A stretch of 64,000 nt of DNA from Fidelibacterota bacterium (lineage in GTDB: Bacteria; Pseudomonadota; Alphaproteobacteria; Rhodospirillales; Rhodospirillaceae), in contig CANJRX010000001.1 of NCBI GenBank assembly GCA_947476895.1, forward strand, positions 496,865-560,864, in the 5' to 3' direction. A model generated the notes under the pieces. It had not been told where the DNA came from. It searched no databases and saw nothing but the letters and a program-made list of their open reading frames with translations. How positions within the stretch are numbered: the stretch's first letter is position 1; every line of letters begins with the position of its first letter. The position numbers were made by a program, and so were the translations under genes. This document shows, piece by piece, positions 29,579 to 52,146 of this stretch.

Positions 29579-29659
29579 GCCTTGGCATCCTATTGGGCCA
29601 AAGGCTGAAACGCCAAGCTCTCCTTGCACGAAAGGGCAAGGGATTTGCTTCTCGGTGTT

Positions 29660-31746: not shown

Positions 31747-33762
31747 CTACTCGGCTCCCAGCGCTACGACCGGATCAAGGTTGGCAGCTTTGCGCGCGGG
31801 CAAGTAACCGAACAAAAGACCGGTGAAAAAAGCGCAGAAGAAGGCGAGCAGTATGGGGCCGGGCGAGAACATGATGGGCTTGCCGAAATAGGTGAAAATC
31901 CAGGCCGTCGTCATGCCAAGGACGACACCGACTACGCCGCCGATGGAACACACCACCAAGGCTTCCGTGTTGAACTGTAAAAGGATGTTGAGTTTGCGCG
32001 CCCCTGTGGCCATACGCACGCCGATCTCGCGTGTACGTTCCGTGACGCTGACCAGCATGATGTTCATGACCCCGATGCCACCCACAAGCAGTGAGATCGC
32101 GGCGATGGAGCCGAGCAGAATAGTGAGGGTGTTTTGCGTTTCCGTCGCGGTCTCAAGCACCGAGACCATGTTGCGGATTTGGAAATCTTCATTCTTGTGG
32201 CGCGCGATTAGAAGCTGTGTGATGGCAGCCTGTGTGGCGTCCATTTTTTCCACGTCCTTCACCGCGACAGTGACGGTCCGGGCATAGCGCTGGCCGTAGA
32301 TGCGTTGGGCTCCAGTGGTGATTGGCACAAAGATCTGGTCGTCCATATCGTTGCCGTTGTTATTGGCGCCTTTTGCCGCCATCACGCCGATGACCTGGAA
32401 CGGGTTATTGTTGATGAGAATGTATTTTCCGAGCGGGTCTTCGCCTTCGGTGAACAGCGCTTTCATCACGGTCTGGCCAATCACGACGACAGGCTCATAA
32501 TCCTGCACGTCCTGGTCCGTAAAGAATGCGCCCCCAGACGTTTGCCAATCGCGTGCGTCGGTGTAATCGGCAGTTGTGCCGTCGACGTTGGTCTGGGCGT
32601 CGTTCTTCTGGTAGCGCACCGTGGCGTTGGTCGGAAATTCCGGCACGGCCTGATCGACGTTGGGCAACTTGGCGATCGCTTCGGCGTCGGCCGGCACTAA
32701 CGTCGCGCGGAAGCCGCCGACAAAGCGCTGGTTGGGCGCGCCGGGCCGGATCAAAAGAAGATCGGTGCCCATGGCCGAAATACGGTCGAGCACTTGTTGC
32801 TTCGCACCGTTGCCGATGGCAAGCATGGCCACAACCGACGCCACGCCGATGATGATGCCGAGCAACGTCAGCATCGTGCGCATGATATTGGTGCTGAGCG
32901 ACCGCAACGCCATTTTGCCGGCTTCAGTAACATCGGGGATGCTAGCGCCGGGCGAGGGGCCAAGGCCCACAGGGCGTATGGTGCGTTCAAGGCGCGCGGC
33001 ATCAGGCTTTGCCGCGCCGGTATCGGACGTAATCACGCCGTCGCGGATTTCGATCACGCGGTTCGCACGCTTCGCAACGTTGGGGTCGTGGGTGATGATG
33101 AGAATGGTATGACCCGCGTCATTCAGCTCGTGCAAAAGCTTCATGACGTCTTCGCCGCTTTTGCTGTCGAGCGCGCCGGTCGGCTCATCGGCCAAAATTA
33201 CAGCGCCGCCGTTCATCAGCGCACGCGCGATAGAAACACGCTGCTGCTGACCGCCGGAAAGCTGGTTTGGCCGGTGATCAAGGCGCTCGCCGAGACCAAG
33301 CTGCGTCAACAAATGTTCGGAGCGGGTAATACGGTCCGCATGAGAAAGGCCCGCATATACAGCGGGAACTTCAACGTTTTCGGTGGCGGTCGACGTAGCC
33401 AGCAGATTGTACTGCTGGAAAATAAAGCCGAAAGCGCCGCGCCGCAGAAGCGCGCGCTGGTCGGCATCAAGCCCAGAGACTTCCTCGCCGGCAAATAAAT
33501 AACTGCCGGATGTAGGACGGTCGAGGCAGCCTAACAGGTTCATCAGCGTGGTCTTACCTGAGCCGCTGGCGCCCATGATGGCGACAAACTCGCCGGGATA
33601 AATATCGAGCGTGATTCCGTGCAACACCTCCACGGCCAGTTCGCCGCGGTTATAAGTTTTGGTGATATCGCGGAGGGCAATCATCGGCGCGACGTCGCCT
33701 TCCGACTGCGCCTGCTCACCCTGCGCTTGCGTGTCGCGCTTAGGATTGTTCAGAGCGGTCAT
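31747..33762 (-). CDS. macB: MacB-type ABC transporter, ATPase-permease fusion
   Basis: 671 residues. The N-terminal ABC ATPase has Walker [12 protein letters not shown], the signature [15 protein letters not shown] and Walker [17 protein letters not shown] linker leads to the MacB permease: one TM (about 288-310), a large periplasmic domain, and three C-terminal TMs. As mechanotransmission transporters they push substrates from the periplasm through an outer-membrane channel. The 5' end overlaps the macA gene by four bases, and the OMF gene follows at once. Substrate unknown; macrolides, peptides or lipoproteins are known for the family. Confidence 0.93.
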
Positions 33763-35195
33763 ATGCGCGGACCTCCGCCTCCGCCTCCGAAGCCGCCGGG
33801 CGGACCACCTTGCCCCTGGCGCTGATTTTGCCGTCCGCCGCCTTGACCCTGTTGAAGGCCGCCGTCGAGCAGCACTTCCTCACCGGGTTGCAGGCCGGAT
33901 TTGATTTCCGCCGACATGCGGTTCACGACACCAACTTCGACTTCGCGGGATTCAACATCGCCGTCTTTGAGAACGTTCACGGTATATCGCGTCGGTACTA
34001 CGTTGCTTGCGCCACCTTCACGCCCACGCCGTCCGCCGCGCGGACGATCTCCGCCCGCTTGCGCGTTGGCTTGCTCAGGCGGCTGACCCGCGGTCTGCGG
34101 TTCGGCAGGCGGTGTTGCAGCCGGCGGTGTCGCGGTTGGCGACGCATTAGGTGCGCCCGCGCCACGCGGTCCACGTCCAGCGCCGCGTACCGGATGCAGT
34201 GCTGTCACCGGCACAATCGGCACACGCTGTGCGGCGGCGACGACAAAGAACACCTGCGCGCTCATTTGCGTGAGCAGATCACCGTCGGGGTTCTCGACGT
34301 CGAACAGGCAGTTATAAAGCACGACGTTGTTGACGACGTCGGGGGTCGGAATAATTTTTCGCAGCTTGCCGTAGCGGCGGCGGTCAGACGTGCCGAGTGT
34401 GGTGAAGTAAGCATCCATGCCGACCTTCAACTTCGGAACGTCGGCCTCCGAGACTTGCGCCCACACGGTCATGGTGTCCAAGTCGGCAATGCGCAGCACA
34501 AGTGGTGCGGTCTGGTTGGCGTTCAGGGTTTGGCCCTGCTTGGCGATCAGGTTCACCACCGTGCCGTCCATGGGCGCAAAAATCTGCGTGTAGCTAAGGT
34601 TGGCCATATCGCCGCTCAAGGTCGATTCAGTCTGCTTGATCTGCGCTTCAAGGGCGGCGATCTGCGCGACGTTGACCTTCAGGTTTGAGTCAGAGGTGTC
34701 GTAGGCATCTTGGCTGGTCGCGTTCTCTTTCAAAAGTTCCTGCTGCCGCTTGAACTGCAGTGCGGCGAGGCTGCGCTGGGCTTGGCGCTGCGCGAGCTGT
34801 GCGCGCAGGTTCATGAGCTGGGCTTGGTCGGCGTTGACGCGCGCCTGGTAAATGGTCGGATCAATCTCGGCCAGAAGGTCGCCCTTCTTGACCATGGCAC
34901 TGTAGTCAACGTGCAGGACTTTCAGCTGCCCCGAGACTTGCGTGCCGACATCGACGTATTGAAGCGGCTGCAAGGTGCCGAGGGCCGTAACCGCATCCTC
35001 GACGTCGCCGATCACCACCGGCTGGGCCAATGCTGTGGTTGCCGGGCTGCTGCGGCCCATGAAGGTCCAGGCGATGCCGCCGACGATCACGACCGCGACA
35101 GCGCCCAGGGCGGGGAGCAACCAGCGCGGACGAGGTTTGCCCACGATTGTGGAAAACGCGGATTTGTTGGGTAAAATTTTGGCGGGTTCAAACAT
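33759..35195 (-). CDS. macA: MacA-type periplasmic adaptor with Gly/Gln-rich tail
   Basis: 478 residues of the membrane fusion protein family: an N-terminal TM anchor (about 26-45), barrel-sandwich/lipoyl parts ([17 protein letters not shown] and [12 protein letters not shown]), a long coiled-coil hairpin (about 115-190) and a beta-barrel. The family is usually about 370-400 residues. Here a Pro/Ala-rich insert ([14 protein letters not shown]) and a low-complexity Gly/Gln-rich C-terminus ([14 protein letters not shown]) add length. It is the first gene of the macA-macB-OMF operon; promoter expected in 35196-35425. Confidence 0.92.
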
Positions 35196-35425: not shown

Positions 35426-36175
35426 GTGATCGCGATAAAAAGCAGACGTTGGATGACCGCTTTAACACGCAGCACAGCAGCTTTTGTGGGTCTCGGCGCG
35501 GTCGTGCTTATGGCTTGTGTTGGCGCTGTCTTGTCGCGCGGTTCATTTACCGTGTGGTTCGCGGCGGGGTGCTTCTTAACGTATGGCGGAGTCGGCGCCG
35601 TTATCGTGGCGCGGATTAACGCCTTTCATCCGTATCCCGGCTTCGGCGAGGCTAATGTTGTCACGCTGGCCCGGCTCGTTTTAACCAGTTTGTTCGCGGG
35701 CCTTGCTGTGGAAACGAGCGTTTCCCCCGCAGCGCTGGCGCCCGCAGTTGCGTGGTCGTTTGGTGCGACAGCCCTGGTGATCTTAGTGCTCGACGGCTTT
35801 GACGGCATGATCGCGCGCGGCCTGAACCAGGTATCGCCTTTCGGTTCGCGCTTCGACATGGAGACCGACGCCCTCCAAATCCTGGTGCTCTCCGTCATCG
35901 CCTACACGCTGGGCAAGGCCGGGGCCTGGGTTCTGATCGGCGGTTTCTTACGCTACATATATATTGTCGCCGGATGGATGTGGCCGGCATTGGCTCGCCC
36001 CTTGCCGCCGTCCTTTCGGCGTAAAGCGATCTGCGTCATACAAAGTGGCGCGCTTGTCGTGCTTCTGGCGCCCATCATTGTGCCGCCTGTAAGTACCGTC
36101 GTAGGGTTCGTTGCCCTGGCCCTTTTGATTTTTTCGTTTGGCCGGGACGTAGTGTGGAGTCTGCGCGCGGTATGA
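35426..36175 (+). CDS. CDP-alcohol phosphatidyltransferase
   Basis: 249 residues with about 6 membrane helices and the complete catalytic motif DGFDGMIARGLNQVSPFGSRFDMETD-type pattern (D-x2-DG-x2-AR-x8-G-x3-D-x3-D), which transfers a phosphoalcohol head group from a CDP-donor to an alcohol acceptor in the inner membrane. GTG start assumed; ATG 35453 is an alternative. It overlaps the downstream sulfatase gene by ATGA and heads the run into the pterin-like cluster. Product unknown: phospholipid or polar conjugate. Confidence 0.85.
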   Translation: MIAIKSRRWMTALTRSTAAFVGLGAVVLMACVGAVLSRGSFTVWFAAGCFLTYGGVGAVIVARINAFHPYPGFGEANVVTLARLVLTSLFAGLAVETSVSPAALAPAVAWSFGATALVILVLDGFDGMIARGLNQVSPFGSRFDMETDALQILVLSVIAYTLGKAGAWVLIGGFLRYIYIVAGWMWPALARPLPPSFRRKAICVIQSGALVVLLAPIIVPPVSTVVGFVALALLIFSFGRDVVWSLRAV

Positions 36176-37839
36176 AGGTCAGGAAATTCGCCCGGCGAGA
36201 AAGTCCCACGCCCTTGCGGCAAGGCCTGCGCTGGCTTGGCGCGTTGCTGGCAATTTACATCGTTCTGATTCTGCCGGATCGTTTTGGCGGGATTGGATCG
36301 CTGCTCAGCCTCCGCCTGCCGTTAGAACTTCCTTTGATCGTGCTCGCGTTGATCGCGGTGACGGGCAAGCCGCGCATCGTACTGCGAACGCTGATCGTCG
36401 CCGCGCTGACGCTAATCCTGATTTTCAAGCTCGCCAACATGGCGGCGTACTTTGGGTTCGCGCGTGCCTTTAATCCGTTGGTCGACGCACTCATGGTGCC
36501 GGTGGCGCTCGATACATTGGGCAAAGCCGGCGGTATCGGCGCGGTCGTTGCCGCACTCGCCGCGACGGTATTGGTTGTTGCGCTCATGGTCGCGGTGTTC
36601 GTGTGGGCGACGGGTGTGTTCGCCCACAGCATCTCGCGCCACGAACGCCTTCCCGTGGCTTTCGCGGCGCTGGTGGTGGCTGCCATCGGCTTCACGCCTT
36701 ACGGCACCTGGGGCGCCAGCCTGTTCGCGCGCGATCAGGTTGTCGCCATTTTGCAAAGCCTCGAAGATGCGGCAAGTTTCCGCGCGCAGCTTCTTCAAGA
36801 TCCCTTCGCGCAGCTTCCGCTAGACGCGCGCCTCGCGAAACTTAAGGGCAATGACGTCCTTCTGATCTTCGTGGAATCTTACGGGCGTTCATCGCTGGAC
36901 AATCCCGCATACGCATCCTTGTTGCGCGGCACGTTGAAAAAGTTCGGCGCGGCGCTCGAGGAAAAAGGTTTTGCCGCACGCAGCGCTTGGGTGACCTCGC
37001 CCACCTTCGGCGGCGAAAGTTATCTCGCGCATAGCACGTCGGTCTCGGGTCTTTGGATCAATAACCAGCAGCGTTACGTGCAGCTGCTGCGAAGCTCGCA
37101 CGACACGCTCATCAGCGATTTCAATACGGCGGGCTGGCGTACGGTGGCGGTGATGCCGGAGATCACGATGCCCTGGCCCGAAGCCGCCTATTTCCACTTC
37201 GGCAAAATCTATACGGCGCCGGATTTGAATTATAAGGGCGAGCCCTTCGACTACATGACCATGTCAGACCAATACGTGCTTTCGGCTTTTCAAACCCACG
37301 AACTCGCGAAAGAAGATCGCGCGCCTGTCATGGCCGAGATAGCTTTGATCTCTAGCCACATTCCCTGGGCGCCGATTCCAAAATTTGTGCCGTGGGAAGA
37401 CGTCGGCGACGGCAGCATTTTCACAACCGCCCGCACGCCCGAGTCCGCCAACGATGTTTGGCGGGACTCTGCGCGCGTGCCCGTGGCTTACGCAGACTCC
37501 ATCAACTACACCCTGCAAACGCTGCAGTCGTTTGTCACCACCTTCGGGCGCGATAACACGCTGGTGATTATTATGGGCGACCATCAGCCCATGACGTTCC
37601 TCACCGGTGATGGCGCAAGTCATGAAGTGCCGGTGCATATCATCGCCCGCGACCCGGCGCTGCTGGCGTTGCTGGACGAAGGCAAAGGAACGCCCGGCAT
37701 GGAACCCAATGAAACCAGCCCGTCCTGGCCTATGGATAGTTTGCGCGGCCGCATCTTGCGGGCTTTCACGCCGCCTCCGGGTGAGCCATCATTGCCACCC
37801 CCGGCGGCTGTTGAAGAGCCGCCGACCGCTAAACCTTAG
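36172..37839 (+). CDS. LtaS/MdoB-like membrane sulfatase-fold transferase
   Basis: 555 residues from ATG 36172, which overlaps the upstream stop. The N-terminal part has five hydrophobic helices; the extracytoplasmic domain has the alkaline-phosphatase/sulfatase fold, with metal-site VESYGRSS (E235 in the acidic position), TSPTFGGESYLAHST for the nucleophile region, and IIMGDHQPM. Family members hydrolyse or transfer phosphoglycerol or phosphoethanolamine groups. A Pro-rich tail ends the protein. Probably acts with the CDP-alcohol transferase on an envelope lipid; the substrate is unknown. Confidence 0.78.
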   Translation: MKVRKFARRESPTPLRQGLRWLGALLAIYIVLILPDRFGGIGSLLSLRLPLELPLIVLALIAVTGKPRIVLRTLIVAALTLILIFKLANMAAYFGFARAFNPLVDALMVPVALDTLGKAGGIGAVVAALAATVLVVALMVAVFVWATGVFAHSISRHERLPVAFAALVVAAIGFTPYGTWGASLFARDQVVAILQSLEDAASFRAQLLQDPFAQLPLDARLAKLKGNDVLLIFVESYGRSSLDNPAYASLLRGTLKKFGAALEEKGFAARSAWVTSPTFGGESYLAHSTSVSGLWINNQQRYVQLLRSSHDTLISDFNTAGWRTVAVMPEITMPWPEAAYFHFGKIYTAPDLNYKGEPFDYMTMSDQYVLSAFQTHELAKEDRAPVMAEIALISSHIPWAPIPKFVPWEDVGDGSIFTTARTPESANDVWRDSARVPVAYADSINYTLQTLQSFVTTFGRDNTLVIIMGDHQPMTFLTGDGASHEVPVHIIARDPALLALLDEGKGTPGMEPNETSPSWPMDSLRGRILRAFTPPPGEPSLPPPAAVEEPPTAKP

Positions 37840-37848
37840 GAGATCGCT

Positions 37849-38637
37849 TTGGTATTCGTGCCGTTCATCCATCAGACCCAGGCTTCGTTACGGCCAAGCG
37901 ATGCCGTAGCGATCATTCCCTTGGCGGCGGTGGAAACGCACGGGCCGCATCTGCCGCTGGGCACTGACGGCCTGATCGCAGAAGGCATTCTCGACCGCGC
38001 CGCGAAGCTTGATCGTAGCGCGAGCAATTTTCTCCGCTTACCGCTGGTCTGGCTGGGTGCATCCAGTGAACACGCCGACCGCGCCGGCACGCTCAGTTGT
38101 GAACCTGAACACCTGATCGCGCATGTCGTCGCCATCGCCGAAGGTCTTACCCGCTGCGGCGTCACGCGCGCCATGCTGTTTAATGGCCACGGCGGCAATA
38201 TCGCGGCGGGTGCCATCGCGGCTTTGAAACTTAGAACACGCTTCAACATGCTCGCGGCCAGCGCGCATTGGTTGGATTTTGGATTGCCGCCTAAGCTCAC
38301 TGCGCCCGCACCGCTCGCGGGCGATGTGCATGGCGGCTGGGTTGAGACCTCGGTGCTCATGCACCTCACGCCGCAGTTGGTCGTAGAAGATGCGATTGCT
38401 GCGCGTCCCGCCAGCACACCGGCGGCATGTTTGTTTCCGAGCGGTCCCGTTAATTGGGGTTGGAAACTGGACGACCTCGCTGCCCACGATGACGCCAAGC
38501 ATCATCACGGCGGCTGGATCGGCCGGCCCGATCTCGCTACGGCGGAGTTAGGTCAGCAGTTGGTGGATCACGCGGCCAATGAACTGCTTCGTGCGCTGGG
38601 CGAAATTGCAGCAGCGCCCTGGCCGCCGCGCGCTTAG
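37849..38637 (+). CDS. Creatininase-family amidohydrolase (ArfB/MftE-like)
   Basis: 262 residues starting at TTG with AGGAG 6 bases upstream. The metal-site pattern AVETHGPHLPLGTDGLIAEGI and FNGHGGN are those of the creatininase family. Its members include creatininase itself, mycofactocin MftE and archaeal ArfB, which deformylates FAPy in riboflavin and F420 synthesis. Its position beside a GTP cyclohydrolase II and a RibD-like reductase favours an ArfB-like or related amide hydrolysis on a pyrimidine intermediate, but that is inferred. Convergent with ribA, 3 bases apart. Confidence 0.75.
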   Translation: MVFVPFIHQTQASLRPSDAVAIIPLAAVETHGPHLPLGTDGLIAEGILDRAAKLDRSASNFLRLPLVWLGASSEHADRAGTLSCEPEHLIAHVVAIAEGLTRCGVTRAMLFNGHGGNIAAGAIAALKLRTRFNMLAASAHWLDFGLPPKLTAPAPLAGDVHGGWVETSVLMHLTPQLVVEDAIAARPASTPAACLFPSGPVNWGWKLDDLAAHDDAKHHHGGWIGRPDLATAELGQQLVDHAANELLRALGEIAAAPWPPRA

Positions 38638-38640
38638 CGT

Positions 38641-39792
38641 TTATTTCCGGAAAGCTGCCCGGTTCAGGCCCTTAGTGATTTCACCAAGCATGTGGCCGGC
38701 GCGTTCGGCTTTGGTCGTCAGGTAATTGTGGTTGTGCGGATTGACGTTGCCGATGATGCGTTGATGCCCGACCACATCGACGCCGAAATTTTCCAGCGCG
38801 CTGATCTTGCCGGGATTGTTGGTCATCAACGTGATCTGACGGAATCCGAGCAGCGCTAGCATGGCGCCCGCGACGGCATAGCGGCGCTCGTCGGGTCCGT
38901 AACCGAGAACCGCATCGGCATCCATCGTGTCGTGGCCCAACTCCTGCAAACCATAGGCGCGCATTTTGTTGAGCAGGCCGATGCCGCGGCCTTCCTGGTC
39001 GAGATACAACAGCACGCCGCTGCCGGCCGCGGCGATTTCACCAACAGCTAAACGCAGCTGATCGCCGCAATCGCATTTCAAGCTCGCGAACAAATCACCC
39101 GTCAAACAGGCCGAATGCAAACGCGTGAGCACGGGGCGGTGCGGATTTGGCTCGCCAATGACAATGGCGACTTGATCATGCAAGCCGTCGCCGCCGCGGA
39201 AGATCACAAACTCGGCTTCGGTGGCTTCGGCCAAAGGCACGCGTGTACGCGCGGCGATGGTCAGATCGCGCGCCGACTGCTCATGGAAATCCGAAACCGC
39301 CGAGGCATCGACTTCAGCCAGTGCAGGCTGCTCGCCCGCCGCCGTGGGTAACACCACCGCCGACGGCAATAAATAGGCACGCTTCACCAGTTCCAGCGCT
39401 GCGGCTTCCAACGTCGTGGCCGGGCGATGTTCGAACACCGGCACCACCGGTTCTACGGCCAGAAGGATGACGTCGATTTCGTCGCTGGTCAGTCCGGAGA
39501 GTGAAACATAAGAGGCGACCGTTGTGTCGACACCCAAATGCGCCAAGCGCGGCGCAGGCAGGATCAAGCCGGGCGCGCCGCCCGTGGCGCGGTGCCAGGC
39601 CGCAATGCGTCCGCCAGCCAGCATCTCGGCGGCCGCCACCGTCAGGCTCAAACCTCCGGCGCCGGTCAGTTTGACGGGCCGGCCAGCCCTGAGTTCGCTC
39701 ACCGCGCGTTGGACCATAAGACGGCCGGGATTCCCGAACCACCTTGCCAAGTCCCCGTCTACGGTACCAATCTTCACGTCTTCGTTCGGCAC
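38641..39792 (-). CDS. ribA: GTP cyclohydrolase II with N-terminal extension
   Basis: 383 residues from GTG 39792; the frame is open further to 40056 but overlaps the divergent RibD-like gene. The C-terminal domain is canonical: RLHSACLTGDLFASLKCDCGDQL holds the three zinc cysteines, YLDQEGRGIGLLNKMRAYGLQ and GPDERRYA supply Tyr and Arg, and LMTNNPGKISAL closes. It opens GTP to 2,5-diamino-6-ribosylamino-pyrimidinone phosphate. About 170 residues before it form a domain with RAVSELRAGRPV, RibB-like in flavour but without RibB catalytic motifs. The catalytic core is intact, so this is an active enzyme by sequence. Confidence 0.82.
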   Translation of the reverse strand: MPNEDVKIGTVDGDLARWFGNPGRLMVQRAVSELRAGRPVKLTGAGGLSLTVAAAEMLAGGRIAAWHRATGGAPGLILPAPRLAHLGVDTTVASYVSLSGLTSDEIDVILLAVEPVVPVFEHRPATTLEAAALELVKRAYLLPSAVVLPTAAGEQPALAEVDASAVSDFHEQSARDLTIAARTRVPLAEATEAEFVIFRGGDGLHDQVAIVIGEPNPHRPVLTRLHSACLTGDLFASLKCDCGDQLRLAVGEIAAAGSGVLLYLDQEGRGIGLLNKMRAYGLQELGHDTMDADAVLGYGPDERRYAVAGAMLALLGFRQITLMTNNPGKISALENFGVDVVGHQRIIGNVNPHNHNYLTTKAERAGHMLGEITKGLNRAAFRK

Positions 39793-39819
39793 AACTAACC
39801 TGTCAGTCAGAAATTCGTC

Positions 39820-40656
39820 ATGAACACCATTGTGGACTGGGATCGGGACACTCCGCAATGGTCGGCGGTACTGAGTACAGCCCACAATTGTGGCCAAGAT
39901 GGGACACCCCTGGACAGTCCCACATGTGATCTGGCCAAGACCAACACGCTTTGGCCGCTTTACGCGCCTTTGCTCGATGTGCGGGCAGATCAAAGCTTCG
40001 TGATTGGCCAGATCGGCCAGTCGCTGGATGGGCGCATCGCGACTCCCACGGGGCACTCACACTATATAAACGGCCCCGCAGCTTTGGTGCATTTGCACCG
40101 CTTGCGGGCGTTGGTGGACGCCGTTGTGGTGGGTGTGGGCACTGTGATCGCCGACGATCCGCAACTGACGGTGCGGCGTGCGGCCATGAAAGTTGGTCAA
40201 CCGCAACCCGCTCGCGTCGTGATCGATCCGTCCGGCCGCATGCCGGTTGCGGCTAAATGTCTGCAGGACGACGGCGCGCGGCGCATTGTTGTGCACTGCG
40301 GCGCACAACAGCAGGGCCGCGATCCAAAAATAGAATACGTCGATGTGCCACGCACCGACGGGCGCATGGCGTCGCGCGACGTTTTGAATGCACTCGGAAG
40401 ATTGGGTCTGCGCCGCATCTTGGTCGAAGGCGGCGCAAATACCTTATCGGCTTTTCTGCAAAGCGGGTGTCTGCAGCGCCTTCATGTGATGACCGCGCCT
40501 ATCATCATCGGTTCCGGCCCGCAGGGCATTCAGCTGGCCGCCATCGATCGCCTAGATGCTGCCTTGCGTCCGCGGGTTACCAGTTTCGCCTTGCCGGATG
40601 GCGAGGTTCTGTTCGATTGTGACTTTTCGTCAGGTATTGGATCCAAAGCTCCATGA
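39820..40656 (+). CDS. Stand-alone RibD C-terminal-domain reductase
   Basis: 278 residues of the RibD C-terminal/dihydrofolate-reductase-like fold, without the RibD deaminase domain. The core reads GQSLDGRIATPTGHSHYING, then VDAVVVGVGTVIADDPQLTVR and LVEGGANTLSAFL. In riboflavin synthesis this fold reduces the ribose side chain of the pyrimidine intermediate with NADPH. The W-x-x-L start (DTPQWSAVLSTA) looks like that of related alphaproteobacterial RibD-family proteins, so I accept ATG 39820. Divergent from ribA, with only 27 bases between starts. It overlaps cytochrome b561 by four bases. Confidence 0.78.
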   Translation: MNTIVDWDRDTPQWSAVLSTAHNCGQDGTPLDSPTCDLAKTNTLWPLYAPLLDVRADQSFVIGQIGQSLDGRIATPTGHSHYINGPAALVHLHRLRALVDAVVVGVGTVIADDPQLTVRRAAMKVGQPQPARVVIDPSGRMPVAAKCLQDDGARRIVVHCGAQQQGRDPKIEYVDVPRTDGRMASRDVLNALGRLGLRRILVEGGANTLSAFLQSGCLQRLHVMTAPIIIGSGPQGIQLAAIDRLDAALRPRVTSFALPDGEVLFDCDFSSGIGSKAP

Positions 40657-41192
40657 ACGAAGCATCGCCGCGCTATCGTCTGCCTGCGCAAATTCTTCAC
40701 TGGGTCTCGGCGCTGGCTATTATCTGCGGCGTCAGCCTTGGCGTAGCCATGGTGAATGTCGCGCAAGGGCCCTTACAAAATCAGCTGTTCGATCTGCACC
40801 GCTCCTTCGGCGCGCTCATCTTGGCGCTGACCGGCGTGCGGTTGCTATGGCGGCTCTATTCACCGCCGCAGCCGATGGTGGTTGATATGCCGGCGTGGCA
40901 GGAGCGCGCGGCACGAGTGACCCACGTCGCGCTTTATATGTTGCTGTTCGCCGTGCCCCTGGTGGGCTGGGCGGGAACGTCGGCCTTCGGTGCGGCCATT
41001 CGCGTCTTCGGCCTGTTCACGCTGCCGATGATTTTGGAAGAGAACAAGCCGCTGGCCGATGTGTTGCTGAAGCTTCACATGGCGCTGGCTTTCACGCTGT
41101 GCGCGTTGTTCGTCATGCACATCGGTGCGGCGCTGCATCATCACTTCATCCGCAAGGACGATACCTTGCGCCGGATGCTGCCTAAGCTTTAA
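40653..41192 (+). CDS. Cytochrome b561-type diheme membrane protein
   Basis: 179 residues with four membrane helices of the bacterial cytochrome b561 (Cyb561) family, which carry two hemes. Conserved His residues are visible in ILHWVSALAI, LHRSFGALIL, LKLHMALAFT and LFVMHIGAALHHH. It would move electrons across or within the inner membrane. ATG overlaps the stop of the RibD-like gene, so it belongs to the same transcript. Its electron partners are unknown. Confidence 0.85.
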   Translation: MNEASPRYRLPAQILHWVSALAIICGVSLGVAMVNVAQGPLQNQLFDLHRSFGALILALTGVRLLWRLYSPPQPMVVDMPAWQERAARVTHVALYMLLFAVPLVGWAGTSAFGAAIRVFGLFTLPMILEENKPLADVLLKLHMALAFTLCALFVMHIGAALHHHFIRKDDTLRRMLPKL

Positions 41193-42006
41193 CGGCGAAA
41201 ACGTCGCGATGGCCGATGACCAAGCGCGTGCGTTGCTGATCCCGCCACGCCGCAAGTTTCACAGCATCGACAGATCCAAGTTCCGTCACAGCATCCGCGA
41301 TGCCAGTCGCGGTGGCGTGCAGCAGTTCTGATGGCGTGAGAACCCACGGGCTTTCGCCGATGGTTGTGGCATAGCCGGCTTTTTCCAGCGCGCGTTCCAG
41401 ACACGATGCGGCTTGTGGTCCAGCGGCAGGACCGAAACCCTTGTCGGTTGTCTGGTGCAAGCAGAACGCGGTGACAACAGCTTCATCAAGCGGATGCGGC
41501 GGCTCGCTATGGATTTTTCCATCAAAAGTTAGCGTCGCTAAAAGCGGCAGCTGCTTATCCGTTAAAGCTGAAACACACTTTTCGATCCAAGCAGCGGACG
41601 CCAGATCAAATAGCGCCGAAGCGGTGACAAGCTCAGTTCCATCGGGCCAAGCCGCAGGTTCGCGCGCAAAATCGTGCACGCGGGTTTGGACGGTGATGTG
41701 TTTCCGACCGCGGCGGAGCGTGAGGTCTGTGCTTTGGTGCGAGGCTTCGTCAGCCCAGGCCGCGAGAACTTGAAGCGCCGCCGCAAGATTATCTGCGTCG
41801 TGGTCTACCAAGGTCCAGTGCTGGCGATCAGGCAACCGATCGGCAAAGGCCCGCAACGAAGATCCGGTGCCTGCACCAAGATCGCAAATCGACAGCTCCG
41901 AACGCGCAGCAAAAAAATCAGCGCAGGCCGTTAAAACTGCGGGATTGCGCGCGGCCTTATCGGCGGGTTCGCGTAAAGCAAGCCAAGCCGGCGAAAAGCC
42001 GCTCAC
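41182..42006 (-). CDS. SAM-dependent methyltransferase, class I
   Basis: 274 residues, GTG start overlapping the stop of the GT4 gene (GTGA). The SAM-binding motif is ICDLGAGTGSSLRA, followed by LVDHDADNL and TELVTASALFDL. The C-terminal half is helical and not family-specific. Small-molecule substrate unknown. It ends in an 11-base overlap with the convergent cytochrome gene. Last gene of the minus-strand run ppnN-MDR-PTPS-GT4-MT. Confidence 0.78.
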   Translation of the reverse strand: MSGFSPAWLALREPADKAARNPAVLTACADFFAARSELSICDLGAGTGSSLRAFADRLPDRQHWTLVDHDADNLAAALQVLAAWADEASHQSTDLTLRRGRKHITVQTRVHDFAREPAAWPDGTELVTASALFDLASAAWIEKCVSALTDKQLPLLATLTFDGKIHSEPPHPLDEAVVTAFCLHQTTDKGFGPAAGPQAASCLERALEKAGYATTIGESPWVLTPSELLHATATGIADAVTELGSVDAVKLAAWRDQQRTRLVIGHRDVFAVKA

Positions 42007-43046
42007 GGCAAAGCATTCCACAAAGCCTCGGCCACGAAAGCTGCAGTATCGTCCCATGTGGGAAGGGCTTGGCCATGGGCCCACGCGGCATCGCTGAGTT
42101 TCTGGCGATAGGCTTGATCGGACAGCACGCGGCGCAAAGCAGCGGCCAATGCGGCCGGATCGTCGGGCGGCACAAGAAGGCCTGCGTCGGCAGGCACTGT
42201 TTCCGTCACAGCGCCCGCTGCGCAAGCGACGATTGGCAATCCATGAGCGAGCGCTTCGGCGAACACCATGCCGTAACCTTCATGGCGCGACGGCAAAACG
42301 AAAATGTCGGCGCCGGCGTAGGCCGCTTCAAGGTCGGCATTTCTCAACTCACCAACCAGCGTGACGCGATCATTCAATTTGTATTCCTGGATGAGGTCTT
42401 GAACCTTGCGCGTCACCTGCGGGTCCAGGTCCTGACTGCCGACCAGCACGCTAGTCCACGGCAAGTCGATCAAAGTTGCCAGCGCAGGAATAAGGACGTC
42501 GTGGGCCTTACGATGGGTGAGGGTGGCCACGGTCAAAAGTTTCGGCACCGTGTTTGTCTGCGCCGCCCGCGCAGCGCGGTCGGTACCCGGTGGCGCGAGA
42601 TAAAGGTGATTGCGCGAAACGCCGTAATCGCGCGCCAAGGTCTCTACCGTGTGCCTGCTGGTCGCGACGACCGACTGTGCGAGGCGCAGGGCCGCGCGTT
42701 CAGACTCTTTGAATTGCGCTACGGCCGATTCAGACAGCCCCGTTTCCTCGGCCAAAGGGTGATGCACCAAAGCCGTGAGGCTCAGTTCAAACTCTTCCAG
42801 CAAGGCACGCGGGATCGCGCCGTAAGCCAGACCATCAGCCAGCACGGGCGTTTCCGGCGGTAAGGCCGCCAAAATCGCGCGCGTGGCGGCGAGGTCATCG
42901 GCGGTCGGATTGGGAAAGCCTGCGGGCAACGGCAGGTGGTGCGGAAACCACCCCGTTGCGGGCAGCGCTTGCATCAAACGGCGGGCATAAGCGTAACCGC
43001 CGGTCAGCGTCGAGATATCACCTGGGATGGCAAACCAAACATCAGG
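42003..43046 (-). CDS. Glycosyltransferase family 4 protein
   Basis: 347 residues of the GT-B fold. It shows LTVATLTHRKAHDVLIPAL, LVGELRNADLEAAYAGADIFVLPSRHEGYGMVFAEALAHGLPIVAC (donor-site E-x7-E), and a terminal helix. Start set at GTG 43046, eight bases after the PTPS stop; a longer start inside that gene is less likely. Would transfer a sugar from a nucleotide donor, retaining configuration. The acceptor may be the small molecule made by its neighbours. Confidence 0.82.
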   Translation of the reverse strand, partial: PDVWFAIPGDISTLTGGYAYARRLMQALPATGWFPHHLPLPAGFPNPTADDLAATRAILAALPPETPVLADGLAYGAIPRALLEEFELSLTALVHHPLAEETGLSESAVAQFKESERAALRLAQSVVATSRHTVETLARDYGVSRNHLYLAPPGTDRAARAAQTNTVPKLLTVATLTHRKAHDVLIPALATLIDLPWTSVLVGSQDLDPQVTRKVQDLIQEYKLNDRVTLVGELRNADLEAAYAGADIFVLPSRHEGYGMVFAEALAHGLPIVACAAGAVTETVPADAGLLVPPDDPAALAAALRRVLSDQAYRQKLSDAAWAHGQALPTWDDTAAFVAEALWNALP

Positions 43047-43053
43047 CACTGGC

Positions 43054-43461
43054 CTAATTCCCCGAAAGGTCCGCCTCGTACGACGCGAGCGCATTGTGCG
43101 ACTCATGCAGCGTGATCTTCAGGCGTTCCAATCCGCTGGCGCTGGGACCAAGTTTGCCGGCCGCAATCGCGGCTTTGATTTTCTGGAACACCCAATGGGC
43201 AACGGCTTCGGTGGTGGAGCGGCGTCCACGGAAATCCGGATGCTCGTCGAGATTGCTGTAGTTAATGGAGGTCAGCACAGCTTTCAGGGTGTCGATGGCC
43301 AAGCCGATATCGACCACGATGTCGTTTTCGTCCAGCTCGCGGCGCATGAAGCGCACATCGATCACGTAGGTTGCGCCGTGAAGTTTCTGGGCGGGGCCAA
43401 AAACTTCGCCTTTGATGCTATGGGCAATCATAACGTGGTCGCGGACTTCTACGGCGTACAT
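43054..43461 (-). CDS. PTPS/QueD-fold protein lacking canonical catalytic residues
   Basis: 135 residues of the 6-pyruvoyl-tetrahydropterin synthase (T-fold) family. Core segments are recognisable: IAHSIKGEVFGPAQKLHGATY, INYSNLDEHPDF, STTEAVAHWVF and LHESHNA. In active members a Cys precedes an H-G-H zinc motif, and an Asp-His pair follows; here these positions read A, H-G-A and N-Y, so the zinc site and catalytic triad are degenerate. It may bind a pterin- or pyrimidine-like ligand, or catalyse something different. It sits between the dehydrogenase and the glycosyltransferase. Confidence 0.78.
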   Translation of the reverse strand: MYAVEVRDHVMIAHSIKGEVFGPAQKLHGATYVIDVRFMRRELDENDIVVDIGLAIDTLKAVLTSINYSNLDEHPDFRGRRSTTEAVAHWVFQKIKAAIAAGKLGPSASGLERLKITLHESHNALASYEADLSGN

Positions 43462-43478
43462 GGAAATTCCTTGTTGAT

Positions 43479-44450
43479 TTAGGTGTAGCGCAAGACAGTC
43501 ATAAGGCCTGGGCTGTCTGCAGCAAACACTTTAGGTAAAGCAGTGGGCGCATCGGCGAAAGCAATCTCGCCGGTGATCAGGGCGTCAAAGCGCGGATCGC
43601 GTAAAAGCTCCAGCGCTTTGGCCATGCGCCGCGCGGTTGTCCAGCGCGCGCGCCGTGACGTCGGCACCGCGCCGACCTGCGACGATAAAAGTGTAAGGCG
43701 CCGGGAATGAAACGCGCCGCCCAAGGCCACGGATACTTCTTTGTCGCCGTACCAGCTGGCTTCCACTACGCGGGCCTCGGTGCCGGCACTTTCCAAGCCC
43801 AGGCGTAAACCTTCGCCGGTGGCGCTGGTGTGAATGACGATGTCCTGGTCTTTCGGTGCGGCGGCCGGCAGGGCAAAAGCTGCACCCATCTTTTCGGCGA
43901 CAGCTTTGCGGGCGGGATTGATATCGATGACCGTCACAACGGTGCCGGGCATTTGTGCAAGTACGCCTGCAGTCAAAAGACCCAGCACGCCGCCGCCGAT
44001 AATAAGAATGTGATCGCCGGGCGCGGCCTCCGCGTCCCAGCTCACATTCAGCGCCGTCTCCATATTGGCGGCCAGCGCCGCGCGGCGTAACGGCAGGTCG
44101 GCCGGAAGCGTGTGCACCCAGGACGGCTCCACGGCTGCGATTTTTTGATGCGGATGCAGAAGGAAAACGTTTTCGCCGATGCGGTCCTTCGGGCCGTCTT
44201 CAACAACCCCGACCATGGCGTAGCCGTACTTCACGGGAAAAGGGAATGCACCCTCCTGGTGAGGGCAGCGCATGCGTTCATGTTCAGAAACCGGCACATG
44301 GCCTGCCGACACCAGGCGCTCGGTGCCGCGGCTTACGCCGGAAAACCGCGCCGCGACGCGCAACAGTCCCGGTGCGGAGGCAAGTTCGCTCGGCCGGATT
44401 TCGACCGCGTCCTTACCCACGTACCAAATTGCATCGCTCTGCGGCATCAC
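43479..44450 (-). CDS. Medium-chain dehydrogenase/reductase, zinc-less type
   Basis: 323 residues: a GroES-like N-terminal domain (GVSRGTERLVSAGHVP) followed by a Rossmann domain (IGGGVLGLLTAGVLAQ and VVTVIDINPARK). The canonical zinc-binding Cys-Gly-x-Cys of alcohol dehydrogenases is absent, and the RCPHQEGAFPFPVKYGYAMVG segment is that of the BchC-like or SRGTE subgroup. NAD(P)-dependent oxidation/reduction of a small molecule is likely. It follows ppnN by 21 bases and starts the PTPS-GT4-MT run. Confidence 0.78.
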   Translation of the reverse strand: MMPQSDAIWYVGKDAVEIRPSELASAPGLLRVAARFSGVSRGTERLVSAGHVPVSEHERMRCPHQEGAFPFPVKYGYAMVGVVEDGPKDRIGENVFLLHPHQKIAAVEPSWVHTLPADLPLRRAALAANMETALNVSWDAEAAPGDHILIIGGGVLGLLTAGVLAQMPGTVVTVIDINPARKAVAEKMGAAFALPAAAPKDQDIVIHTSATGEGLRLGLESAGTEARVVEASWYGDKEVSVALGGAFHSRRLTLLSSQVGAVPTSRRARWTTARRMAKALELLRDPRFDALITGEIAFADAPTALPKVFAADSPGLMTVLRYT

Positions 44451-44471: not shown

Positions 44472-45908
44472 TTATATGATTTTGTAGACCGGGTGGTATT
44501 CGCCCGAAAGCTTCATACGCTTTTGCGCGATGAATTGCGTCAGGAGCTCGTCTACCGGCTGCATCAGGCGGGCGTCGCCGCTGATCTGGAAAGGTCCACG
44601 CGCCTCGACTTGGCGGATAATCGGCTCGCGGATGTTGCCGGCGACCAGGGCCGAGAACATGCGGCGCAAATTGGCCGCGCGCGTATGCACGGGTTGGTCC
44701 AAGGTTAGGTCTAAGGCTGCGACGCTCTCATGCGTCACGTCGAAGGGCACCTGCATGGCGTGGGGTACGTTCAGGGTCCAGTTGAAGTTATAAGCATCAC
44801 CCGTCACCGTGCGGTGGTGGCGCACGCGCTCCAAACCCATAACCATGGCGCGCGCCGCTTCGGCGGGATCGTCGATGATAATGCGGTACCGCGCCTGTGC
44901 GCTGGCCCCCAGCGTCAGGCCAATGAACTCATCAACGCGCTGAAAGTACGCAGCCGAGGATGCCGGGCCCGTAAAGACCAGCGGCATGGGTTGATCGGCA
45001 TTGGCCGGGTCCAGCAGCACGCCTAACAGATAAAGAATTTCCTCTGTGGTGCCGACGCCGCCCGGGAAAACGATGATGCCGTGGCCGAGACGTACAAAAG
45101 CTTCAAGGCGCTTTTCGATATCCGGCATGATGACGAGGTTGTTGACGATGGCGTTGGGCGGCTCGGCGGCGACAATGCCCGGTTCCGTCAAACCGATGTA
45201 ACGCCCGGTGCGGTTGCGCTGCTTGGCGTGGCCGATGGTGGCGCCCTTCATGGGACCCTTCATGGCGCCCGGTCCGCAGCCCGTGCAGACGTTCAGCCCG
45301 CGTAGGCCAAGCTCATAGCCGACGCGCTTGGTGTAATCGTATTCCTCGCGCGAGATGGAATGACCGCCCCAGCACACAACCAGATCGGGCTGGCCTTTAG
45401 TGTCCAGCACACGCGCGTTCCGTAAAATACAGAACACAGCGTTGGTCACGCCGTCGGCCTGGGTCAGGTCGAAGCGCCCGTTATCAACGATTTCAATCGA
45501 GATGTAGACGATGTCGCGCAGCACCGCGAACAGATGTTCCTTAACGCCGCGGATCATTTCGCCTTCGACAAAGGCCACGCCCGGCGCGTGGGTCAGCTCG
45601 AGCTTGATGCCCCACGACTGTTGAACAATCTTGATTTCGAATTCGCGGTACTTATCGAAGAGCGCGCGCGGATCATCGCTGTAGCTGCCCGAGTTCAGAA
45701 CCGCGAGGGCGCACTGGCGGAACAGGGGATAAAGGCCCCCTTGGCCCCGGTCGAGCAGCTTCGCCACTTCTTCATGCGAGAGATTTTCCAGGCTGCCGCG
45801 TGGCGTCACGCGCGCATCCACGAACTCGGCCGCTTCCACAATCGCTGTGGGCTGGGCTGCCGTGGGTGTGGTGCCCTTATCCATTTGTTCTGAGGTCTGT
45901 GTGGCCAT
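44472..45908 (-). CDS. ppnN: Pyrimidine/purine 5'-nucleotide nucleosidase
   Basis: 478 residues matching YgdH/PpnN (E. coli 454 aa), which cleaves nucleoside monophosphates to base plus ribose 5-phosphate and is a (p)ppGpp target in E. coli. The LOG-like core has CTGCGPGAMKGPMKGA and the signature FPGGVGTTEEILYLL, flanked by the PpnN-specific N- and C-terminal domains. The gene lies 15 bases after the OGT array and 21 bases before the dehydrogenase gene on the same strand. Confidence 0.88.
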   Translation of the reverse strand: MATQTSEQMDKGTTPTAAQPTAIVEAAEFVDARVTPRGSLENLSHEEVAKLLDRGQGGLYPLFRQCALAVLNSGSYSDDPRALFDKYREFEIKIVQQSWGIKLELTHAPGVAFVEGEMIRGVKEHLFAVLRDIVYISIEIVDNGRFDLTQADGVTNAVFCILRNARVLDTKGQPDLVVCWGGHSISREEYDYTKRVGYELGLRGLNVCTGCGPGAMKGPMKGATIGHAKQRNRTGRYIGLTEPGIVAAEPPNAIVNNLVIMPDIEKRLEAFVRLGHGIIVFPGGVGTTEEILYLLGVLLDPANADQPMPLVFTGPASSAAYFQRVDEFIGLTLGASAQARYRIIIDDPAEAARAMVMGLERVRHHRTVTGDAYNFNWTLNVPHAMQVPFDVTHESVAALDLTLDQPVHTRAANLRRMFSALVAGNIREPIIRQVEARGPFQISGDARLMQPVDELLTQFIAQKRMKLSGEYHPVYKII

Positions 45909-45923
45909 GGCTAGAGCATACTC

Positions 45924-47831
45924 TTAACCCAGCCGGGCGACGTGAATATCTTGCGGATTTTCGTCCGCATTATGATGTTTCATCATTTGCAAGTAGGCGG
46001 CTTCAAGATGGCGCGCGAATAACGGCGCATCGAAAAGCGGCGCCGTCAGCAGGTTTTGGGCCAGCTTGTGTTTGATGGCGGAAAGCCGCTCGGCTGCGTT
46101 CGCAAGGTCAATCGCTAATGCCTCATAGCCTTCCACAGAGGTTGTGATGAGTTCCGGCAAATCAACCGCCCGCAACAAGCTGGCAGCGACGCGGGCGGCA
46201 AAGGATGCGCCCATGCGGGTTACTACAGGCAATCCCATCCAAAGCGCATCGCTGGCGGTGGTGTGGGCGTTGTACGGCAGAGAGTCGATAAATAAGTCGG
46301 CCACTTTATGGCGCGCGAGGTGCTCACCTTGATCGACGCGGCCGGCAAAGATCAGGCGTGTCGCGTCCACACCGCGAAGCTCGGCCTCTCGGCGCAAGTT
46401 TACCGAAACCGACGGGTGTTCTTCGAACAGCCAGAGAACGCTGCCCTCGATCTGCTTCAAAATGCGCATCCAGCTGTCGAATACAGTGGGCGTAAATTTG
46501 CGATTGTTGTTGAAGCAGCAAAACACGAAGCCCTGCGCGGGCAGGCCGAAGTATTCGCGCGAATATATTTTGTCGGTTGTTGCGCGCTGCCTATCATTGG
46601 CCTGATAGCTGTGCGGCATATAGACGATTTTCTCGACGTAATGCGCGCGTTCGCTTTCGGGAATCACGGTCGTATCGGCAATAATGTAGTCCATGAATGA
46701 TGCACCCAGGGTGCCGGGATAGCCGAGGTAGTTCACCTGAATGGGCGCGGCACGTTGCGCAAAAATTTCCGTGCGCGCCCGCGTCGTGTAGCCTGCGAGA
46801 TCTATGGCAATGTCGATTTTGCGCGCGCGGGCTAATGTGGCGATGTGGTGCTCAGAGCGGTCGGCAACGTCGAGGAAAACATCACAGGCCTTTTGCACGC
46901 GGGCCCGCATCGCATCTTGCGTGTTGGCGCCATAAGAAAAGCCGTAGATTTCGAACTGATCGCGGTTATGCGCTTCTAATACGCCGGCCATCAGCACCGA
47001 AACCGGATGGTTGCGAAAATCCATAGAGAAATAACCCACGCGGATTTTCCGTGCTGCCACGCGCGCAGGCGCCAGGGGCGGTGCGGGGGCCGAATGTCTC
47101 TCGGCCACCCACAGTTCGGCCGCTTTACGCTGCAAAGCCGGCGCATCAAGAAGGACCAGCGCGGGCCAGGGCGGAATCGCCTTTTCGCCGCGCGCCAAGC
47201 GTTCAGAAATTTGCGCGATAGCCGCGTCGAAGCCGTCCCAGTTGCACAGGCCGGCTTGCGTATAAAGGCGCAAACCTTGGGCGAAGTCGTATCCGGGCCG
47301 AAGGCGCAGGGCCGTATCAAAGCTTTCAATGGCCTCGGCGTAACGGTCTAAGTCACTGAGCGCGATGCCGCGATTGTAGTGCGCCTCGGCATAGGAAGAA
47401 TTGAGCTTGAGTGCCGCGTCAAAGCTTTCGACCGCGGCTTCATTCTGCGTCAGCGCGCTCAAAGCAACACCGCGATTGTTATAAGCTACGAAATGATCGG
47501 GCTTCAGTTTGATGGCTTTGTCGTAAGCGCTGACCGCCGCCCGGTATCGTTTGAGGTCTTCCAACGCATAGCCGAGGTTGTAATGGGCGGCAGCATTGTT
47601 GGGATTGACCTTAATCGCGCCACTGATCAGCTCGACAGCTTCGAAGAAATTGCGTTGCTGTGCCGCGATGACGCCGAGCATGTGCAGCGCATCGAAATGT
47701 TTCGGCTGCACGCCCAATATCCGCTTGTAGGCTGCCTGCGCGTCTTCAAGGCGTCCGCTTTGCTGAAAGCCGACGGCTTCCATCAGCTGCGCATGAATCA
47801 GATTGGGATCGACGAATTTAGATTTTGACAT
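45924..47831 (-). CDS. TPR-containing SPINDLY/OGT-type O-glycosyltransferase 1
   Basis: 635 residues. The N-terminal 190 residues are about five TPR units (ALDAKQ-like AEAHYNRGIALSDL, NRGVALSAL). The C-terminal GT41 domain shows GYFSMDFRNHPVSVLMAG with the catalytic His, VDLAGYT-type binding, FCCFNNNRKFTPTVFDSWMRIL and the YNAHTTASDALWMGLPVVTR donor-site loop. Likely adds a sugar to protein Ser/Thr, as FlmG does for flagellin. Its ATG lies inside the end of gene 2 (14-base overlap). Substrate unknown. Confidence 0.88.
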   Translation of the reverse strand: MSKSKFVDPNLIHAQLMEAVGFQQSGRLEDAQAAYKRILGVQPKHFDALHMLGVIAAQQRNFFEAVELISGAIKVNPNNAAAHYNLGYALEDLKRYRAAVSAYDKAIKLKPDHFVAYNNRGVALSALTQNEAAVESFDAALKLNSSYAEAHYNRGIALSDLDRYAEAIESFDTALRLRPGYDFAQGLRLYTQAGLCNWDGFDAAIAQISERLARGEKAIPPWPALVLLDAPALQRKAAELWVAERHSAPAPPLAPARVAARKIRVGYFSMDFRNHPVSVLMAGVLEAHNRDQFEIYGFSYGANTQDAMRARVQKACDVFLDVADRSEHHIATLARARKIDIAIDLAGYTTRARTEIFAQRAAPIQVNYLGYPGTLGASFMDYIIADTTVIPESERAHYVEKIVYMPHSYQANDRQRATTDKIYSREYFGLPAQGFVFCCFNNNRKFTPTVFDSWMRILKQIEGSVLWLFEEHPSVSVNLRREAELRGVDATRLIFAGRVDQGEHLARHKVADLFIDSLPYNAHTTASDALWMGLPVVTRMGASFAARVAASLLRAVDLPELITTSVEGYEALAIDLANAAERLSAIKHKLAQNLLTAPLFDAPLFARHLEAAYLQMMKHHNADENPQDIHVARLG

Positions 47832-51946: not shown

Positions 51947-52146
51947 CGGCAAACAATAAAGCGAATTCGCGCGGGCCGTCCCAGCCAAAAATTTCGGGAA
52001 CCTGAAGACCTTACAAGCTCGCAACGTTACAGCGCCATGGCCACCACCATAACCGGAGTCTTGGCGGTTGCGCGGACGGAGGTGGAATGGGATGATGCCG
52101 CGAGCAAGGGTTGTGGGATCATACCGTGACCGATCGAGACCAAAGA

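Follow-up and report, generated by a model that had tools for sequence, protein, structure and literature searches.

Why would a bacterium keep RibA and RibD-type enzymes, the first enzymes of riboflavin synthesis, in one compact gene set with a glycosyltransferase, a methyltransferase and a CDP-alcohol phosphatidyltransferase? The set occupies positions 35426-44450 of the window, a stretch of 64,000 nucleotides (positions 496,865 to 560,864 of contig CANJRX010000001.1, assembly GCA_947476895.1) from a genome of 2.7 Mb in 46 contigs that is 97.7 % complete. The original prediction held that the genes convert GTP into a tailored, perhaps membrane-linked compound that is not riboflavin. When the set was searched for in other genomes and its enzymes were placed in trees, it proved to be far beyond a chance assembly, and we are nearly certain that it encodes a real pathway separate from riboflavin synthesis. 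What it encodes appears to be an undescribed route in which the opening steps of vitamin B2 synthesis are turned to making a different compound, one that probably carries sugar and, in some species, is attached to the membrane.

Ten genes fill the interval, and each was located with the domain previously named for it:

35426..36175, plus strand: CDP-alcohol phosphatidyltransferase (CDPPT); Pfam CDP-OH_P_transf, 57 bits; site motif intact; predicted phosphatidyl-X synthesis
36172..37839, plus strand: LtaS/EptA-fold membrane phosphotransferase (LtaS-like), annotated as sulfatase; Pfam Sulfatase, 37.5; AlphaFold 2 (AF2) model
37849..38637, plus strand: creatininase-family amidohydrolase (CRN); Pfam Creatininase, 185 bits
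38641..39807, minus strand: GTP cyclohydrolase II, cluster-type RibA; Pfam GTP_cyclohydro2, 169; start uncertain, about 39778-39807
39820..40656, plus strand: stand-alone RibD-type pyrimidine reductase without deaminase; Pfam RibD_C, 141 bits
40653..41192, plus strand: cytochrome b561, a lineage-specific accessory (25/115 loci); Pfam, 98 bits
41182..42006, minus strand: class I S-adenosylmethionine methyltransferase; Pfam, 21 bits, below the cut-off of 27
42003..43052, minus strand: GT4 glycosyltransferase; Pfam, 110 bits; start codon uncertain
43054..43461, minus strand: PTPS-fold protein of the SCO6650 type; Pfam PTPS, 79; match to 3d7j
43479..44450, minus strand: medium-chain dehydrogenase (MDR) in which the usual zinc ligands are missing; Pfam ADH_zinc_N, 22.6, below the cut-off of 31.8

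The MDR gene is the first of a minus-strand run of MDR, PTPS, GT4 and methyltransferase. Four-base overlaps had been reported between several genes, and three such joints were read from the sequence: ATGA at 36172-36175 (CDPPT to LtaS-like), ATGA at 40653-40656 (RibD_C gene to b561) and GTGA at 42003-42006 (GT4 to methyltransferase).

When one genome per species was scanned by PTPS alignment, at least 584 confirmed matching stretches were found. The best 80 of these by PTPS similarity (the named loci) were combined with 35 loci sampled within the class of the window, which its nearest named relatives (L065 and others) indicate to be Alphaproteobacteria, giving 115 loci in which, owing to this choice, remote carriers are under-sampled. 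The best 80 of the at least 584 stretches came from Alpha-, Beta- and Gammaproteobacteria, Actinomycetota, Acidobacteriota, Gemmatimonadota and two records labelled Fidelibacterota, a label that looks mistaken. Two loci labelled Candidatus Marinimicrobia (L064 and L067) have PTPS-fold proteins 90 % and 78 % identical to that of the window, so that mislabelling or misbinning is probable. Across the 115 loci, MDR was present in 113, PTPS in 114, GT4 in 111, the methyltransferase in 103 (73 of the 80 named loci) and the RibD reductase in 90, and all five stood together in 81. The corresponding counts for the 35 other neighbourhoods of the class were 35, 34, 32, 30 and 27. Less frequent members were CDPPT (61 of 115), RibA (48), an OpgH-type protein (37), a flippase-like LPG_synthase_TM protein (35), CRN (35), FkbM (31), the LtaS-like protein (26), b561 (25) and YceI (24). 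Neighbour pairs were counted in those 86 loci that extend for 7 kb to either side of PTPS: MDR-PTPS in 84, PTPS-GT4 in 83 and GT4-methyltransferase in 67, with divergent pairs of RibA and RibD reductase in 33 and of CDPPT and MDR in 30. The order MDR-PTPS-GT4-methyltransferase is preserved over four phyla.

Presence and absence were then profiled in 289 sampled genomes of the class. MDR was found in 36 of them, the window's genome included, and because the weakest match reached 8e-54 despite a cut-off of 1e-20, the MDR family is sharply bounded. The cluster-type reductase was present in 31 genomes, 30 of them MDR-positive (Fisher P 1e-33), CDPPT in 21, of which 20 were MDR-positive (P 4e-20), and the LtaS-like protein in 22, of which 20 were MDR-positive (P 4e-19); CDPPT and the LtaS-like protein co-occurred in 20 genomes (P 1e-27). 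In the MDR-positive genomes these three genes are often unlinked from MDR. These P values ignore relatedness, and the 36 MDR-positive genomes cover 24 family codes. The cut-offs were our own choice (reductase 1e-55, set to exclude the RibD of rib operons; CDPPT 1e-30; LtaS-like 1e-40), and since scoring was confined to the top 8, 9 and 4 first-look candidates of each genome for the three proteins, single misses are possible. There were two exceptions: G127 (74 % complete) has reductase, CDPPT and LtaS-like protein without MDR, and G056 has the LtaS-like protein without MDR, reductase or CDPPT. In the matched reductase or creatininase stretches of a few genomes (G259:C2:267140-267826 and C2:271024-271773, G135:C8, G236:C4), one stop codon was counted at the end or inside. 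In viral contigs, 18 pattern matches were obtained and none was confirmed. The genes therefore recur together both in the 115 loci and in the genome profiles, and the objection that they might not co-occur elsewhere falls away.

Does the set simply supply riboflavin synthesis? The window RibA scores 216.5 bits against NF001591 (cut-off 148) and 195 against TIGR00505 (below its 205.85), and in an alignment with E. coli RibA it retains the zinc cysteines, Arg128 and Tyr105. Its identification as RibA was correct; the start had to be placed near 39.8 kb, and the first 180 residues form a decayed RibB-type domain. In a structural model (pLDDT 81.9) this N-terminal domain is RibB-like (3ls6, Z 14.2 with 146 residues aligned), and it lacks the acidic motif of RibB. 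The cluster reductase consists of RibD_C only, with no deaminase domain, and the rib-operon RibD of the same genome has both. Domain scans found no intact RibB, no RibE and no RibH among the ten genes, as had been stated; RibB and RibE do exist in the genome, in an operon on contig C7 whose products are RibD with its deaminase, RibE, and a protein that joins an intact RibB domain to a RibA half. This RibA half (RibBX type) is without zinc cysteines and is dead. In total, three genes of the RibA type and two with RibD_C were counted in the genome, and a second intact RibA lies on contig C1 (C1:274083), so that GTP cyclohydrolase II is supplied independently of the window. Two RibA proteins of this genome (G000:C1:274083, equal to L062:9009-10142, and window 38641-39807) combine an intact RibA with a decayed RibB part, and their mirror image, RibBX, lies in its rib operon (L061:8169-9305).

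Both enzymes were placed in trees. The RibA tree held 70 rows, namely 48 cluster-located, 21 from elsewhere and E. coli; 21 of 24 non-cluster RibA places of at least 150 bits were taken, and L052 and the dead RibBX half were left out. One clade of 37 rows contains 36 cluster-located RibA proteins, the window's included, and one from elsewhere (SH-aLRT 94, just below the 95 starred by the tool). That single row comes from a 5.6 kb contig of G246, a genome whose cluster contig stops just after the reductase. The tool warned of long branches for L073, L146 and L161, and of meeting long branches for L106 and two more with L073 and for L146 with L080. For the RibD tree, 21 rib-operon places were chosen by position and frame and compared with 91 cluster rows; the rib-operon reductases form one clade (support 0.95) that contains no cluster row. 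The four actinomycete reductases branch separately from the remaining cluster rows. In the four actinomycete loci RibA is present in three and the RibD reductase in all, both of other lineages. The same two enzyme types would thus have been recruited more than once, which suggests that the pathway needs the conversion of GTP to ribityl-diaminopyrimidine, with the long-branch warning applying there.

The set is therefore conserved independently of the rib genes, with RibA and reductase lineages of its own and rib genes elsewhere in the genome. A spare or alternative supply of riboflavin would agree with the dead RibA half of the rib-operon RibBA, and in several genomes (for example G033, G131 and G277) the sole RibA above 150 bits is near the core and may serve riboflavin there too. 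With an intact RibA at C1:274083 and a complete RibD in the window's genome, no deaminase in the set, and RibA and reductase in their own clades, we consider it very improbable. The rib operon does not need this RibA and reductase, and a riboflavin back-up was rejected for the window's genome on gene content and trees; the prediction that the product is not riboflavin is supported. Judged by homology, the pathway probably converts GTP to ribityl-diaminopyrimidine.

We take Tyr105 (E. coli numbering) to be a residue relevant to the release of the deformylated product, and since the window RibA keeps it, a deformylated product would be expected. Tyr105 is kept in 45 of 47 RibA matches with all three zinc cysteines, the window apart, the two without it being L073 and L081. 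A 48th match (L052) is not a credible RibA, and L123 gave no RibA match even without filters. The creatininase-family protein had been likened to ArfB, and a role of this kind would have RibA stop at a formylated intermediate that CRN deformylates, BrbF/ArfB-like, to feed the pathway. In its favour, BrbF is described in PMC9478397 as a creatininase-family formamidase acting on that formylated intermediate. CRN and the RibD reductase share one open frame in L098, and all 34 of 34 CRN loci also carry the reductase. However, the Tyr105 counts speak against it, and CRN reaches only 23.3 of the 180 bits required by the ArfB model (102.8 of 172 for MftE and 62.9 of 235 for creatininase, all below the NCBIfam cut-offs). 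PMC9478397 also reports that no complementation was obtained with clade III creatininase homologues from Methylobacterium or with a second homologue from Ochrobactrum. As RibA keeps Tyr105 and 25 of 253 MDR-negative genomes carry the subfamily as well, the ArfB-like role is weakened, and we hold it to be improbable. The general model of a formamidopyrimidine (FAPy) intermediate and a deformylase was rejected on the Tyr105 counts, and CRN as a pathway marker was rejected as enriched yet not specific.

The PTPS-fold protein matches 3d7j (SCO6650) with a phmmer E-value of 1.7e-41 and 53 % identity over 130 residues, and lies below the cut-offs for QueD (39.9 of 89.25 bits) and 6PTHBS (34.1 of 125.5 bits). 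Its full-length similarity and the motifs GPAQ...HGAT and HES place it in the SCO6650-type family. HGAT stands in place of HGH in at least 95 % of the 115 aligned PTPS rows, so that one zinc His is lost, and the catalytic Cys is missing in a 14-row alignment. The Glu at the pterin-anchor position is retained in at least 95 % of the 115 rows. We take this Glu to be the residue that holds pterins in true PTPS, and the lost Cys and His to have had catalytic and zinc roles. The dehydrogenase belongs to the MDR family as predicted, with the correction that the catalytic Cys and His ligands of zinc MDR alcohol dehydrogenases are missing: S-x-GTE is present in 110 of 113 copies, and YGY stands in at least 95 % where GHE, presumably the comparison motif of zinc MDR, is usual.

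On balance, and with modest confidence, we favour a dedicated non-riboflavin pathway from GTP through ribityl-diaminopyrimidine to a pterin-like, glycosylated and methylated head group, lipid-linked in about half of the carriers. By homology, RibA would open GTP to 2,5-diamino-6-ribosylamino-pyrimidinone phosphate, and the lone RibD reductase would yield the ribityl form. As there is no deaminase, the 2-amino group would be retained, and the resulting 2-amino-4-oxo pattern could be recognised by the pterin-binding PTPS fold. A pterin-like or pyrimidine head group X may then be formed by the PTPS-fold protein and the zinc-free dehydrogenase, with CRN taking part in those loci that have it, to be glycosylated by GT4 and methylated by the methyltransferase. 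In roughly half of the carriers the CDP-alcohol transferase would make phosphatidyl-linked X, the flippase-like protein would turn it over, and the LtaS/EptA-fold enzyme would transfer or release the phospho-head group outside. Thus, of the predicted GTP-to-tailored-compound pathway, the co-occurrence and the independence from the rib genes are borne out, and the pterin identity and lipid linkage are what we infer.

Some of these genes are joined in one open frame. GT4 and methyltransferase lie within one open frame in 17 of 115 loci (L087 was read), and CDPPT and LtaS-like protein in L076 (sequence read), as CRN and reductase do in L098 (likewise read). CDPPT and FkbM are joined in L045 and L057 by domain matches only. 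The single-case joins (L098, L076, L045, L057) come from draft or metagenome assemblies. Such joins point to enzymes that handle neighbouring intermediates.

Several observations weigh against this reading. The near-total MDR and PTPS counts are partly selection, because the loci were found with these genes. The cluster-type reductase is missing from 6 of the 36 MDR-positive genomes at the cut used, and neither CDPPT nor LtaS-like protein is found in 15 of the 36. CRN (at least 200 bits) occurs in 19 of the 36 but also in 25 of 253 MDR-negative genomes (P=9e-9). Only 48 of 115 loci gave a RibA match, which in one case is not credible, although a housekeeping RibA could supply the step. Moreover, the cluster RibA clade leaves out 12 of the 48 cluster-located RibA rows. 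Six of these (L036-L040 and L044) group with housekeeping-type RibA or close to it, and the others are L073, L080, L114 and the three actinomycete copies.

Is the product then linked to a lipid? The CDPPT motif D-x2-DG-x2-AR...G-x3-D-x3-D is intact in the window and in 56 of 58 cluster copies, and CDPPT scores below the NCBIfam cut-offs for pgsA (30 of 109 bits) and pssA (22.5 of 107). The AF2 model of the LtaS-like protein (pLDDT 86.5) is nearest to LtaP, LtaS, GacH, EptC, MCR and BcsG (Z 20-22.5), all of which we take to transfer phospho-head groups, and sulfatases, which share the fold, are close behind (Z 18-19). The top structure is 4uop (Z 22.5, 3.6 A over 269 residues). The earlier description as an LtaS-like sulfatase is thus upheld in part, with lipid phosphotransferases as the closer relatives, and no NCBIfam model matched the protein. 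The flippase-like gene, which is outside the ten genes of the window, was found in 26 of the 30 loci from gammaproteobacteria and in 4 of 4 from actinomycetes. Among the MDR-positive genomes CDPPT is missing from 16 of 36 and the LtaS-like protein is present in 20 of 36; the LtaS-like gene is often unlinked, either on a different contig from MDR or megabases away from it (G015, G033, G095, G135, G162, G236, G260). Whether this lipid arm acts on the pathway product is a near-even call on which we lean slightly towards doubt. Tentatively, the product could belong to a widespread, undescribed class of membrane lipids, in which a GTP-derived, glycosylated and methylated ribityl-pterin or pyrimidine would be placed on phosphatidate by a dedicated CDP-alcohol transferase and its phospho-head group delivered outside by a dedicated LtaS/EptA-type enzyme. 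YceI, cytochrome b561 and the flippase-like protein might then handle the lipid at the membrane in different lineages.

Alternatively, the core may make a soluble glycosylated and methylated pterin or pyrimidine, with CDPPT and the LtaS-like protein forming a separate phospholipid-modifying module that is co-inherited or co-regulated. The 15 MDR-positive genomes without either gene fit this, 8 of them with OpgH in the locus. However, CDPPT occurs in 1 and the LtaS-like protein in 2 of the 253 MDR-negative genomes, and their frequent unlinked position in carriers also speaks against it; we regard a soluble product as unlikely. OpgH-type glucan glucosyltransferase genes near the core (L026, L027, L070, L118 and others; two that were scanned are MdoH by NCBIfam) raise another alternative, in which a periplasmic glycan would be decorated with the product or with its phospho-head group, the LtaS-like enzyme acting in the manner of OpgB and OpgH serving as an alternative arm. 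The 37 of 115 loci with OpgH agree with this. In the class sample OpgH stands in the locus of 8 genomes, none of which has CDPPT or LtaS-like protein, against 21 of 28 others with at least one (P=2e-4), and OpgH apparently replaces the CDPPT/LtaS-like arm there; 7 of the 36 MDR-positive genomes have none of the three. However, several gammaproteobacterial loci have OpgH and CDPPT together, and the one MdoH model tried (NF003962) was unmatched in the window's genome, the only genome in which OpgH was searched outside the loci. We consider glycan decoration improbable, and decoration of osmoregulated periplasmic glucans as a general function was rejected on the unmatched MdoH model.

Genes for MacA-MacB-TolC-like export lie to one side of the ten genes, and genes for a PpnN-type nucleosidase and three TPR-GT41 proteins to the other. 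The export genes (30319-35195) are operon-like and adjoin the set; after the nucleotide nucleosidase gene come, in tandem, those for the three TPR proteins, which are large and carry Glyco_transf_41 (OGT/SPINDLY-like) domains (44472-52162). When ten flanking proteins were searched in the 35 class loci, no matches were found except for the MacB-like ABC protein, which matched in 9 of 35 at 28-46 % identity, as expected for a common ABC transporter. A TPR protein with an FkbM methyltransferase domain lies 6 kb from the set (28547-29629); FkbM genes are also present in 31 of the 115 loci. A YceI-family gene, presumably of the polyisoprenoid- or quinone-binding type, adjoins CDPPT in alpha-, beta- and gammaproteobacteria (L037, L053, L069, L085, L100 and others). 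In Actinacidiphila, a luciferase-like oxidoreductase gene (LLM-class, by eye) adjoins the RibD reductase (L123:5801-6865).

No paper describing the gene set was found in a full-text search of open-licence PMC papers. If the pathway is true, its product could be a new cofactor, pigment or membrane lipid, and carriers among the at least 584 stretches include the culturable genera Halomonas, Marinobacter, Xanthobacter, Azorhizobium, Variovorax and Micromonospora.

When compared with known systems, the set shares with the riboflavin pathway the RibA- and RibD-reductase-type enzymes for the first steps, and differs in having no deaminase, RibB, RibE or RibH and in its separate RibA and reductase clades. 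Toxoflavin-type pathways also leave the riboflavin route via RibA- and RibD-like enzymes; they are not known to have a PTPS fold, MDR, GT4 or lipid arm like that of the window. With the LtaS/EptA/OpgB phosphotransferases and their PgsA-type donor synthesis the set has in common the LtaS-like fold and a CDP-alcohol transferase that may supply a phosphatidyl donor, whereas the LtaS-like protein of the window has no NCBIfam match. The window RibA has the same domain pair as RibBX, a name we take to denote RibB with a dead RibA half (it is also in the title of 6mnz), and is its mirror image, with RibA intact and RibB decayed. The closest likeness by PTPS identity is the SCO6650-SCO6655 region of S. 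coelicolor, where SCO6650 (3D7J) is 53 % identical to the window protein. SCO6655, a GTP cyclohydrolase II, reportedly has Met at the key tyrosine and makes a formyl compound, and SCO6650 is said to be without zinc and without PTPS activity. In contrast, the window RibA keeps the Tyr, and the window set adds CRN and b561. All four actinomycete loci of our collection, the SCO region not being among them, have MDR, PTPS, GT4, methyltransferase, flippase-like protein, CDPPT and RibD reductase. The set places a long-standing orphan, the SCO6650-type PTPS-fold protein of S. coelicolor, in the context of a full pathway.

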